From contig JACDAM010000078.1 in the NCBI GenBank assembly GCA_013695435.1, positions 1-33,777 on the forward strand: a stretch of 33,777 bases of DNA. Reading direction: 5' to 3'. Position numbers and translations under genes: made by a program. Below the pieces are notes generated by a model, which ran no database searches, was not told the origin of the DNA, and saw only the letters and a list, made by a program, of their open reading frames with translations. This DNA is from Burkholderiales bacterium (lineage in GTDB: Bacteria; Pseudomonadota; Gammaproteobacteria; Burkholderiales; JACMKV01). Positions 25,830 to 29,403 of the stretch are shown piece after piece; the stretch's first letter is position 1, and the number at the start of each line of letters is the position of its first letter.

Positions 25830-26717
25830 ATGTACAAAACCCTCGAAGATTTCGTCGGCAACACGCCGCTGGTCAGATTGAAGCGGCTGCCCGGCGCCAC
25901 CACCAATACCGTGCTGGTCAAACTCGAAGGCGACAACCCGGCGGGCTCGGTCAAGGATAGGCCGGCGCTATCGATGATCAAACGCGCGGAAGCGCGCGGC
26001 GACATCAAGCCGGGCGATACCTTGATCGAAGCAACCAGCGGCAATACCGGTATTGCGCTTGCCATGGCGGCGGCGATGATGGGTTATCGCATGGTGCTGG
26101 TGATGCCCGAACATCTGAGCGTCGAGCGGCGGCAGACCATGCGCGCGTTCGGCGCCGAATTTGTGCTCACCTCCGAAGCCGGCGGCATGGAAACCGCGCG
26201 CGATACCGCCGAGCGTATGCGCGACAACAATGAGGGAATCATCCTCGACCAGTTCGCCAATCCCGATAATCCCTTATCGCACTACGAAGGCACGGGCCCG
26301 GAAATCTGGCGCGATACCGACGGCCGCATCACGCACTTCGTCAGCAGCATGGGAACGACGGGAACCATTGTCGGCTGCTCGCGCTATTTCAAGGAAAAAA
26401 ACCCTGCCATCCAGATCATCGGCGCGCAGCCGTCGGAAGGTTCGCAGATCCCGGGTATACGGAAATGGCCGCCGGCTTATCTGCCGAAAATCTACGATGC
26501 GAGCCGCGTCGATCGCGTGCTTGAAGTCAGCCAGACCGACGCCGAGGAAATGACGCGGCGCCTCGCCAGCGAAGAGGGCATCTTCGCGGGAATTTCATCC
26601 GGCGGCGCGCTGCACATCGCGCTCCGACTCAGCGCCGAGCTCGACCATGCCGTCATCGTTTCGATCGTCTGCGACCGCGGCGATCGCTACCTGTCGACCG
26701 GAGTATTTCCGGCCTGA
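25830..26717 (+). CDS. cysM: Cysteine synthase B
   Basis: 295-residue PLP enzyme that makes cysteine (or S-sulfocysteine from thiosulfate) from O-acetylserine. Lys42 in NPAGSVKDRPA binds PLP; the substrate loop is EATSGNTGIALAMAAAMMGY (about 67-86), and the phosphate-binding TTGTIVG-like segment follows HFVSSMG. The short length, MPEHLSVERRQTMRAFGAE and the IPGIRKWPPAYLP loop are CysM rather than CysK features. Its substrate comes from serine, which the serC region supplies. It appears to have its own promoter. Confidence 0.94.
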   Translation: MYKTLEDFVGNTPLVRLKRLPGATTNTVLVKLEGDNPAGSVKDRPALSMIKRAEARGDIKPGDTLIEATSGNTGIALAMAAAMMGYRMVLVMPEHLSVERRQTMRAFGAEFVLTSEAGGMETARDTAERMRDNNEGIILDQFANPDNPLSHYEGTGPEIWRDTDGRITHFVSSMGTTGTIVGCSRYFKEKNPAIQIIGAQPSEGSQIPGIRKWPPAYLPKIYDASRVDRVLEVSQTDAEEMTRRLASEEGIFAGISSGGALHIALRLSAELDHAVIVSIVCDRGDRYLSTGVFPA

Positions 26718-26751
26718 AATGGAAATGCGCTGAGACACCTCTGACCAGACT

Positions 26752-28755
26752 CTGACCAACTTCCGCGCGCCCATTCTGCTTGCCGCACTCCTGATCAGCG
26801 GGCCGGGTTTCGGCCAGCAGATCGGTTTGTCGATAGCCGATATCCACAGTCCTTCGTTCAGCGCGAAATCGATCGAAGCCGGGTTGCACGGCGACGATTT
26901 ATCCAGACTCGAACTGCGCATAGGCGAACTCACCTTGCAGGGCAAAACGCTGCGCAATGTCGCGTTGACGTGCGGCCAATTCCAGCTCGAAAAAACGACG
27001 ATGCGCTGCGCCGAAGGCGTTCTCGACGCCGGCCGGAAATGGCCGATCCGTTTTGCCTACGAGACGGAAACGCAAAAGCTGGAGCTGATCCTGCAGCCGG
27101 AGAAAGGCGAGAGCTGGGAGCTGACTGCCGAATTTAAGCGCGAGCCGTTTACACTCGAACTCGTAATCACGCACGGCAAATTGCAGCGGCTCGCGGCGCT
27201 GTTGCCGGAGGCAGCGCCGAACGCATTTCCGAACACATTGCCGAAAGTGAGCGCCGGCGTCATCGACGGCCGCTTCACGCTGCGCGGCGGTCGTGGCCGT
27301 CTCAAACTCGCCGCCGATACGAAGTTTCGCGATCTTGCGTTCAGCGATGCCGCCGGTTTGCACGCCGGCGAAAAAATCGAAGCCGCGATTCGACTGACCG
27401 CCGACCAATACGGCGATGGCTGGCAATGGAAAACCGGGATCGACTGGATCGGGGGCGAGGTATTCTGGCAACCGCTGTATTTTGCGGGCGGACATCGCTT
27501 GACCGCGGCCGGCGCTGCGAGCGAGCGTTCGATCGAAATCACGTCTGGTCAGCTTGCTCTGGCGAAAATCGGCGAGATCGATGTGACTGCTTCATGGGAC
27601 CGGGGGGCGCATCGTCTGAACAGCGCCAGGGCGCGCACCGATGAGGTCGATCTGGCCGAGCTCTATGCGCAAGTGTTGAAGCCCATGCTTGGACAGACCG
27701 CGCTGGCCGATCTTCGCGTCGATGGCCGCGCCGGTTTCGATGTTCGATTCGGCGACGGCGCGGTGCAGGCGCTGACCCTGGCCTTGCAAGGCGTTTCGCT
27801 GGAAGACAAGCAACGCCGCTTCGCCATTTTCGATCTCGACGCGAATGTGCCGTGGCAACGCAGCGTGCCGACCAGGGCCGGCATTCGCATAAGCGGCGGC
27901 GAAGTGTTTCGTCTGCCGCTGGGGGCAGCCCAGGTTCCGCTCGAAATGAACGGCCTCAGCTTTGCCATACCGAAAACCGAAATTCCTATCCTTGATGGCA
28001 GGCTCGCGCTCAGCGATTTTCGCGCCGAGAAAAGCGGAGAGGAGTGGCAGTGGCAGTTCGGCGCCGGCCTGACGCCTGTCTCGATGGAGAGGCTGACGCA
28101 AGATCTCGGCTTGCCGCGCATGCTCGGCAGCCTGTCTGGCGTCATTCCAGCTGTGCGCTACCGCGATTCGACGTTGAGCGTGGATGGCGCGCTGTTGTTC
28201 AAGATTTTCGACGGCACGATCGTCGCGAAAAATCTGGTGATGTTCGATCCGCTCGGCGCTACTCCGCGGCTCTCGGCGGACGTCGATATGCGCAACCTGG
28301 ATCTCGATCTGCTGACGCGCACGTTCTCGTTCGGCAATATCACCGGCCGCATCGACGTGACTTTGAGCAAGGTGGAACTCGCCGATTGGCGGCCAGTCCA
28401 ATTCGACGCTTCGATCCGCAGCAGCCCGGGAAAGTATCCGAAGAAGATCAGTCAGACCGCGGTGCAGAATATTTCGGCGCTGGGCGGCGCCGGCGCGGTC
28501 GCCGCGCTGCAACGCAGCTTTTTGCGATTCTTCGAGCAGTTCGGTTATTCGCGCATCGGTTTGAGTTGCGTGCTGCAGAACAGCGTGTGTGAGATGGGCG
28601 GTATCGAGCCGGCCCAGCAGGGTTATGTGATCGTCGAGGGCGGCGGCATACCGGCGATCACCGTGTTGGGCTACAATCGCCGCGTCGCGTGGCAGGAATT
28701 GCTCGACCGGCTGAAGCGAATTACCCAGGAAAACGTTAAACCGATCGTGCGCTGA
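26752..28755 (+). CDS. ydbH: YdbH-like AsmA-family protein (intermembrane lipid transport), start uncertain
   Basis: About 667 residues from a proposed CTG start (E. coli YdbH 879). The body is beta-rich and repetitive, and the last 200 residues match the YdbH C-terminal domain: GTIVAKNLVMFDPLGATPRLSADVDMRNLDLDLL... with GRIDVTLSKVELADWRPV, then SQTAVQNISALGGAG and FFEQFGYSRIGLSCVL. In E. coli YdbH is one of three AsmA-like proteins (with TamB and YhdP) needed for outer-membrane lipid supply. The frame encodes a good signal peptide (TNFRAPILLAALLISGPGFGQQ) that lies upstream of the first standard start, TTG 26827. The only upstream candidates are CTG 26752 or ATG 26719/26725, which are cut off by an in-frame TGA at 26731. 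The gene is followed by a lipoprotein and a YdbL homologue, which supports the assignment. Confidence 0.75.
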   Translation: MTNFRAPILLAALLISGPGFGQQIGLSIADIHSPSFSAKSIEAGLHGDDLSRLELRIGELTLQGKTLRNVALTCGQFQLEKTTMRCAEGVLDAGRKWPIRFAYETETQKLELILQPEKGESWELTAEFKREPFTLELVITHGKLQRLAALLPEAAPNAFPNTLPKVSAGVIDGRFTLRGGRGRLKLAADTKFRDLAFSDAAGLHAGEKIEAAIRLTADQYGDGWQWKTGIDWIGGEVFWQPLYFAGGHRLTAAGAASERSIEITSGQLALAKIGEIDVTASWDRGAHRLNSARARTDEVDLAELYAQVLKPMLGQTALADLRVDGRAGFDVRFGDGAVQALTLALQGVSLEDKQRRFAIFDLDANVPWQRSVPTRAGIRISGGEVFRLPLGAAQVPLEMNGLSFAIPKTEIPILDGRLALSDFRAEKSGEEWQWQFGAGLTPVSMERLTQDLGLPRMLGSLSGVIPAVRYRDSTLSVDGALLFKIFDGTIVAKNLVMFDPLGATPRLSADVDMRNLDLDLLTRTFSFGNITGRIDVTLSKVELADWRPVQFDASIRSSPGKYPKKISQTAVQNISALGGAGAVAALQRSFLRFFEQFGYSRIGLSCVLQNSVCEMGGIEPAQQGYVIVEGGGIPAITVLGYNRRVAWQELLDRLKRITQENVKPIVR

Positions 28756-28770
28756 AATGCTAAGGAAACC

Positions 28771-28974
28771 ATGACGAATAAAGGGATTGTTCTGCTGGCG
28801 GGTTCGCTGCTTGCCGGGTGCGTGACGATCAATATTTACTTTCCGGCCGCAGCGGCAGAGAAGGCGGCAGACAAGATCATCGATGAGGTCTGGCAGCTCA
28901 AGGACGGCGCGGCGGATGGCGCAGGCGGCGCCAAGAGCGATGCACCGGCGGCGCAACCCAAGCCGACAAAATAA
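28771..28974 (+). CDS. Small YnbE-like lipoprotein
   Basis: 67 residues: a lipoprotein signal peptide with lipobox LLAG-Cys17, then VTINIYFPAAAAEKAADKIIDEVW and a short alanine/lysine-rich tail. Its place between ydbH-like and ydbL-like genes matches E. coli ynbE, whose small outer-membrane lipoprotein pairs with YdbH. Sequence likeness to YnbE is weak (a TIN-type strand then a charged helix), so the name is withheld. A good ribosome site (AAGGA) lies upstream, 15 bases after the previous stop. Confidence 0.8.
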   Translation: MTNKGIVLLAGSLLAGCVTINIYFPAAAAEKAADKIIDEVWQLKDGAADGAGGAKSDAPAAQPKPTK

Positions 28975-28983
28975 GGAGGCGAT

Positions 28984-29403
28984 ATGACTATGCGTTTCGC
29001 ACGCGTTTTGTTCCTTTGTTTGATGTCGATAGCGACCCTGGCGTACGCCCAGGCTGATATCGAAATCAACACGCCGGCGATCACGACGCTGAAAAACAGC
29101 ATGCAGCAACGCCACAACCAGCTCGCGCCGCATTACGCGAGCGGAGCGGTTGGTTTGACGCGCGACGCGCAGATCGTGCTGCGCGATGCGAATGCCGTGC
29201 CGTTGCCGCAGCGCCAAGCGGTCAACTCGCTGGTCGGCGCCGAGAATCAGGACAGGTCGGCGCTCTACCGTGAAATCGCGCGCGCCAACCAGCATCCGGA
29301 ATGGGAGAGCGAAATCCGCTCGACTTTCGCCGGGCGCTGGATCGAAAAAGCGCAGTCCGGCTGGTGGGTGCAGGACGGTCAGGGCGGCTGGAAGAAAAAA
29401 TAA
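28984..29403 (+). CDS. ydbL: YdbL-like periplasmic protein (DUF1318)
   Basis: 139 residues with a signal peptide (ending AYA-Q) and a DUF1318 domain: NTPAITTLKNSMQQRHNQL, GAVGLTRDAQIVLRDANAVPL, NQDRSALYREIARANQHPEWE and the C-terminal KAQSGWWVQDGQGGWKKK, which parallels the E. coli YdbL ending. In E. coli YdbL is the periplasmic protein that keeps YnbE from self-associating wrongly so it can work with YdbH. A perfect AAGGAGG precedes the ATG at 28984; a second ATG at 28990 is 10 bases from it and equally possible. It is translated just after the lipoprotein gene. Confidence 0.85.
   Translation: MTMRFARVLFLCLMSIATLAYAQADIEINTPAITTLKNSMQQRHNQLAPHYASGAVGLTRDAQIVLRDANAVPLPQRQAVNSLVGAENQDRSALYREIARANQHPEWESEIRSTFAGRWIEKAQSGWWVQDGQGGWKKK

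Follow-up and report, generated by a model that had tools for sequence, protein, structure and literature searches.

A ydbH-like envelope gene with no standard start codon before its export signal: a possible CTG start in a family of weak starts

Introduction

Where does translation begin in a gene whose export signal is preceded by no ATG, GTG, or TTG? The question is raised by a ydbH-like gene of a Burkholderiales bacterium, which lies in the window (by which we mean the whole stretch of DNA analyzed here, a complete contig of 33,777 bases from a 2.97-Mb genome in 302 contigs). The original prediction, made from the letters of this DNA, had read ATG-GAA-ATG-CGC-TGA in the frame of the gene, a signal peptide behind the TGA, a CTG at 26752, and the first standard start only at TTG 26827, and it had offered three explanations: a CTG start, a nonsense mutation, or readthrough. 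Each of these elements is confirmed on the sequence. The three explanations also prove to be the right set to argue about; among them, we have come to favor the CTG start and to disfavor readthrough.

In this paper, we have tried to follow that one question through the spacer in front of the gene, the closest relative, and the homologous loci of the order: what could start this gene, and how odd is it, really?

Results

The start region

The features on which the argument turns are the following, in coordinates of the window.

25830 to 26717, plus strand: cysM (cysteine synthase B), matched by NF008735 (E = 2e-159) and TIGR01138, with 95.6% protein identity to the sister genome
26719 to 26733, plus strand: four-codon mini-ORF ATG GAA ATG CGC TGA in the spacer, read from the sequence
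26739 to 26758, plus strand: 9-nt direct repeat CTCTGACCA, two copies at 11-nt spacing, the second copy holding the candidate start
26752 to 26754, plus strand: CTG, the proposed start codon, with no Shine-Dalgarno-like pairing
26752 to 26814, plus strand: signal peptide if translation starts at the CTG, its core ILLAALL-S-PGF-QQ common to the sister
26752 to 28755, plus strand: ydbH-like gene as proposed, 667 codons plus stop, on the evidence of dN/dS, an AlphaFold2 model, and gene order
26827 to 26829, plus strand: TTG, the first standard start in frame, aligned with CTA in the sister
28771 to 28974, plus strand: gene for a small lipoprotein at the ynbE position, with LLAGC in its translation
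28984 to 29403, plus strand: ydbL (DUF1318), matched by PF07027 (E = 1.1e-21)

The cysM stop codon is TGA 26715-26717, and one base downstream of it ATG 26719 opens a short run in the ydbH-like frame (GAA, ATG 26725, CGC) that closes at TGA 26731-26733. From 26734 the frame, which begins DTSDQTLTNFRAPILLAALLISGPGFGQQIGL, stays open to the stop at 28753-28755, a stop-free run of 673 codons. Its first ATG, GTG, or TTG is TTG 26827, and the list of open reading frames places the start of the gene there, with the result that the hydrophobic signal is cut off. Only one CTG precedes the hydrophobic core, at 26752-26754; it lies 34 nt past the cysM stop (the core is at +49 nt) and is spanned by the second copy of the direct repeat (26739-26747 and 26750-26758). 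By inspection, it is only from this CTG that the core is preceded by a short, positively charged n-region, and the peptide then reads (M)TNFRAPILLAALLISGPGFG, with cleavage placed by eye before QQ: a good prediction, made by eye, of a normal, short signal peptide. Upstream of the CTG, no Shine-Dalgarno-like pairing was found (duplex energies of +0.7 and +0.5). Scanned against Rfam at gathering thresholds, the window gave nothing beyond one tRNA, and the exact 19-base pattern of the spacer, sought in viral contigs, had no match there.

The in-frame TGA, which had first been put forward as the anomaly, is indeed present, but it is mostly a red herring. Because TGA 26731 lies in the spacer between cysM and the ydbH-like gene, an in-frame stop at that place is unsurprising and probably incidental; the true oddity is that no standard start precedes the signal core.

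Could this TGA be read as a sense codon? Readthrough of TGA 26731, by selenocysteine or by misreading, would join ATG 26719 to the signal peptide, and the genome does encode a tRNA-Sec with anticodon TCA (68.4 bits over the family cut-off) as well as SelB (363 bits over its cut-off). Yet a stable hairpin after the TGA was not found: in a general comparison of folding with shuffled sequences, the z-score was +1.28, and 184 of 200 shuffles folded at least as well. The sister genome has no alignable sequence in the region of the TGA, and we know of no role for selenocysteine in a cleaved signal peptide. With the machinery present but no stable hairpin past the stop, selenocysteine readthrough is unlikely, and readthrough of either kind strikes us as very improbable. 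As an observation in its own right, the genes for tRNA-Sec (G000:C182:3744-3836) and SelB (C184:3723-4826) suggest that the genome to which the window belongs probably makes selenoproteins.

The sister genome and selection

Within the genus, the comparison is with one congener, G001 (the sister), whose ydbH-like locus lies on a contig with a start region identical to JACMKV010000233.1 and whose ydbH-like protein is 85% identical to that of the window. The signal core ILLAALL-S-PGF-QQ, including the QQ that follows it, is common to the two genomes in the same frame, so the signal peptide is part of the gene, as had been supposed. The sister starts with GTG (L003:1474), the sole standard start before its core, and reads VSSVAKVICATILLAALLASRPGFCQQIDLSIADIHS. 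Of the two codons singled out at the beginning, CTG 26752 stands opposite GTC and is thus not conserved in the sole congener compared; the sequence around TGA 26731 is unalignable.

What of the first standard codon in frame? Translation from TTG 26827 would give a protein that is not exported, since such a start, as the original prediction had pointed out, removes the signal peptide. As a start, the TTG is not conserved (the sister has CTA at this position), nor does it look like a useful one: the signal core upstream of it is shared in frame, the relatives have an equivalent hydrophobic signal, and the cut would fall within the first strand, QQI-L-I, that is common in the family. We find a start at the TTG scarcely credible.

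Between the window and the sister, the whole-gene dN/dS is 0.177; that is, the gene is under purifying selection. Over the 19 aligned signal codons, which hold six synonymous and six non-synonymous differences, the value is 0.289, and it is 0.44 when the n-region from the CTG is added (23 codons). In a rate test, departures from the family majority number 5 in the window and 14 in the sister (p 0.06), and one of the six outgroups listed gives the reverse (19 window-only versus 14 sister-only). An old pseudogene is unlikely, because there is one open frame of 673 codons, because dN/dS is about 0.18, and because the copy in the window evolves no faster than the sister's.

These tests of frame, dN/dS, and rate would miss a very recent loss. 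Might a start have been lost only a short time ago? The ancestral start would then be ATG 26719 or another one in the spacer, since removed by a nonsense or start mutation, and the gene would now yield little or no product. In at least five relatives (L022, L026, L030, L033, and L037), the start that scores best is placed exactly 1 nt past the end of cysM, which is the position of ATG 26719, and the short direct repeat in the spacer is a sign of local change. Against this, the reading frame is unbroken throughout and the lineage of the window has gathered no surplus of changes, so any loss must be very recent; furthermore, with ATG 26719 as the start, the core would follow an n-region of 16 residues that includes one E and two D, which would be unusual in a signal peptide. 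We consider a recent loss of the start to be possible and unlikely.

The spacers themselves differ in length: counted from the cysM stop, the sister's core is at +241 nt and that of the window at +49. A dispersed, ~126-bp repeat that has inverted ends and recurs in the sister genome makes up part of the sister's gap, and because a compact arrangement is common among the loci of relatives, it is probably the sister that has the expanded spacer. The copy between cysM and ydbH lies at L003:1289-1414, with ends GCTCTGA...TCAGAGC; elsewhere G001 has one near-full and several partial copies, and the genome of the window has only traces of 27-29 bp. In G001, moreover, ydbH is not followed by ynbE-ydbL, which are found on another contig, C161 (L003, L045), a sign of either a broken operon or a chimeric contig in the sister.

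Starts across the order

Is the missing start peculiar to the window? In one of the homologue searches, 73 of the 399 genomes searched within the order gave a match. Starts were read at 100 loci, of which 9 were without a tblastn match and 5 were skipped with a match beginning beyond residue 60; among the nine, four are second copies of genomes read elsewhere and one is downstream DNA only, and the loci truly lost are L070, L093, L094, and L100. Genomes with a match beginning beyond residue 150, or with fragments only, were left out of this reading. The criterion, applied to 69 distinct loci, was an ATG, GTG, or TTG no more than 30 codons ahead of the signal core (L062 and L080, with a TTG or ATG inside the core, are counted as having a start), and three loci have none: the window, G048, and G091. 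G048 (L013) has a GAGGAG followed by CTG codons, a parallel that favors the CTG reading. In its congener G091 (L085), the signal is preceded by no standard start and by no CTG either, and therefore another cause can yield such a pattern. For ydbL, our control, a standard start is found in 53 of 53 readable loci. The 69-locus and 53-locus counts used slightly different limits; under one rule, applied to 51 matched loci (the sister, with its ydbL on another contig, is not among them), two ydbH genes and no ydbL genes lack a standard start.

In the same 51 loci, an ATG is available for 29 ydbH genes versus 49 ydbL genes, and the median of the best Shine-Dalgarno pairing is -2.8 kcal/mol for ydbH versus -8.5 kcal/mol for ydbL, a locus without a start being scored 0 kcal/mol. 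The pairing is weaker for ydbH in 48 loci and stronger in 3, with p-values for pairing strength (1e-9 and below) that overstate the case, as the loci are related by descent. Escherichia coli K-12 goes in the same direction (-4.1 for ydbH versus -6.2 for ydbL). In other words, the initiation sites of ydbH are weak across the order, relative to those of ydbL. Part of this contrast is due to strong ydbL sites, for the starts of cysM are only moderately better than those of ydbH: cysM has ATG in 25 of 30 loci and a median of -3.8, and ydbH, in the same loci, has ATG in 17 of 30 and a median of -2.4.

A side observation concerns tRNA genes. Directly before ydbH, L053:1357-1432 and L062:3486-3561 (minus strand) hold a tRNA-Thr(CGT) gene, and the ydbH frame crosses the tRNA; in L055, the upstream frame resembles the remainder of the same tRNA-Thr(CGT), and ARAGORN finds no tRNA there.

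Do the counts tell us whether the contig is simply wrong? One wrong base could hide a standard start at 26752 or create TGA 26731, and the gene would then be ordinary. The genome is in 302 contigs, and CTG starts are so rare that, by our estimate, a consensus error may have a comparable prior. Still, background error alone does not account for the pattern, because two further loci of the 69 share it and no ydbL gene of the 53 does (the numbers are small). The error would also have to be a substitution: by inspection of the sequence, a single indel at the TGA would bring the frame to TGA 26742 or 26753, a further stop, ahead of the core. An assembly error of this kind is, we think, an unlikely explanation that deserves to be kept in mind.

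Spacing and the neighbor upstream

Of 52 loci, 33 have cysM as the immediate upstream neighbor of ydbH, and 24 of the 33 place the best-scored ydbH start between -17 and +29 nt relative to the cysM stop. The spacing in the window is compact as well: its signal core (+49 nt) is inside the common range of the cysM-adjacent loci, and its CTG (+34 nt) is slightly farther from the cysM stop than the starts in those 24. Does coupling to cysM account for weak initiation? It would do so only partly, because loci without cysM are weak too: the 19 loci without a visible adjacent cysM have a median of -3.3 kcal/mol versus -1.9 kcal/mol with cysM (p 0.03). Like pairs of genes coupled by termination and re-initiation, most of these loci have the ydbH start near the cysM stop; unlike them, the window has a gap of 34 nt, which is long for re-initiation by the standard of an E. 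coli reporter in which, in the data given, re-initiation was at background (<3%) at a spacing of 40 nt (PMC2268962).

What the gene may encode

The name "YdbH-like" holds up in gene order, in a beta-rich model, and in a weak profile match; it finds no backing in PF11739, the family of E. coli YdbH. The order ydbH-ynbE-ydbL is found here, with DUF1318 third and a small lipoprotein between. We take the LLAGC in the product of 28771-28974 to be a lipobox; this small lipoprotein has no Pfam match, PF13617 included. PF11739 matched none of 22 alignment members, the protein of the window among them, and for that protein Pfam gave no families at E<=1 and NCBIfam also gave nothing. As a control, E. 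coli YdbH matches PF11739 at 3e-291; searched in 369 genomes of the class, E. coli YdbH found 2 matches. By hhalign, the probability was 1.3% against E. coli YdbH alone, in the C-terminal region, and 10% (E 0.003) against three YdbH sequences, in the same region, which is a weak match. The AlphaFold2 model is mostly beta strands (mean pLDDT 79.6). The best PDB matches of the fold search were ApoB100 and porins, with an rmsd so large that they are too loose to place the fold, and no AsmA-like structures were among the matches listed; by sequence, PDB gave three matches at E about 1, which are not meaningful.

In E. coli, according to one account (PMC8593681), AsmA-like proteins including YhdP, TamB, and YdbH have a predicted inner-membrane anchor in the form of an N-terminal helix, and the same three have been proposed to bridge both membranes; YdbH is described as interacting with YnbE (PMC12977461). 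The likeness to the phospholipid-transport bridge YdbH-YnbE-YdbL (PF11739, PF13617, DUF1318) lies in the gene order, with DUF1318 third, and in a long, beta-rich protein with an N-terminal hydrophobic segment and a weak C-terminal profile match. The differences are those of length (879 residues in E. coli YdbH versus 667 here), of profile (no PF11739 match here and no PF13617 match for the lipoprotein), and of the N terminus, where the protein of the window has a cleavage-like end after the hydrophobic segment. The neighbor upstream is divergent ldhA in E. coli and cysM in the window. By analogy, from gene order and the model, the ydbH-like product is probably an intermembrane bridge protein, and its role may be that of E. 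coli YdbH, the bridging of both membranes.

Discussion

How, then, might this gene get its start? The reading that we prefer, and to which we give an even chance of being right, is that the ydbH-like gene is intact and functional and that its translation starts at CTG 26752, perhaps coupled to cysM. Ribosomes terminating cysM at 26717, and perhaps also those terminating the mini-ORF at 26719-26733, would feed the CTG; re-initiation there, at a low rate, would give the protein a normal Sec signal peptide; and the exported, beta-rich product would probably link inner and outer membranes together with the downstream lipoprotein and YdbL. TGA 26731 would then be a mere spacer stop. Use of the CTG, re-initiation, export, and the bridging function are all things that we infer.

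Genes with rare CUG or AUU starts are the natural comparison (infC is an example of a bacterial gene with an AUU start). The ydbH-like gene resembles them in being an intact gene with only a non-standard start before its functional N terminus; it differs from them in that the codon is absent in the sister, the Shine-Dalgarno sequence is missing, and the start is a predicted one. Those first two differences also speak against use of the CTG, as do the rise of dN/dS once the n-region is added, the slightly long gap to the cysM stop, and the dependence on a single assembly of the metagenome type. The start proposed is a rare one: in the figures given by one study (PMC11497404), CUG makes up 0.024% of bacterial starts and has an output of ~0.86% of AUG output, and in those of another (PMC5622118), of 61,358 ancestral starts, 2 went from AUG to CUG.

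One might go further and imagine that poor starts, often close behind cysM, hold the ydbH-like bridge protein low across the order, with a CTG start in some lineages, that of the window included. Translational throttling would then be a trait of the family; the idea is a tentative one, and we would sooner bet against it than on it.

The window holds a modest but real oddity: an envelope gene that is ordinary in other respects, in a family of generally weak starts, and that most likely begins at a rare CTG. Natural starts at CTG are rare, and this would be one, if real; a gene finder that accepts only ATG, GTG, and TTG would truncate such a gene, with loss of the export signal. It would also point to a testable general feature, namely much weaker initiation at ydbH than at ydbL, which lies two genes further along. 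Where a gene is annotated from its first standard start codon, an envelope protein can be made to look cytoplasmic.
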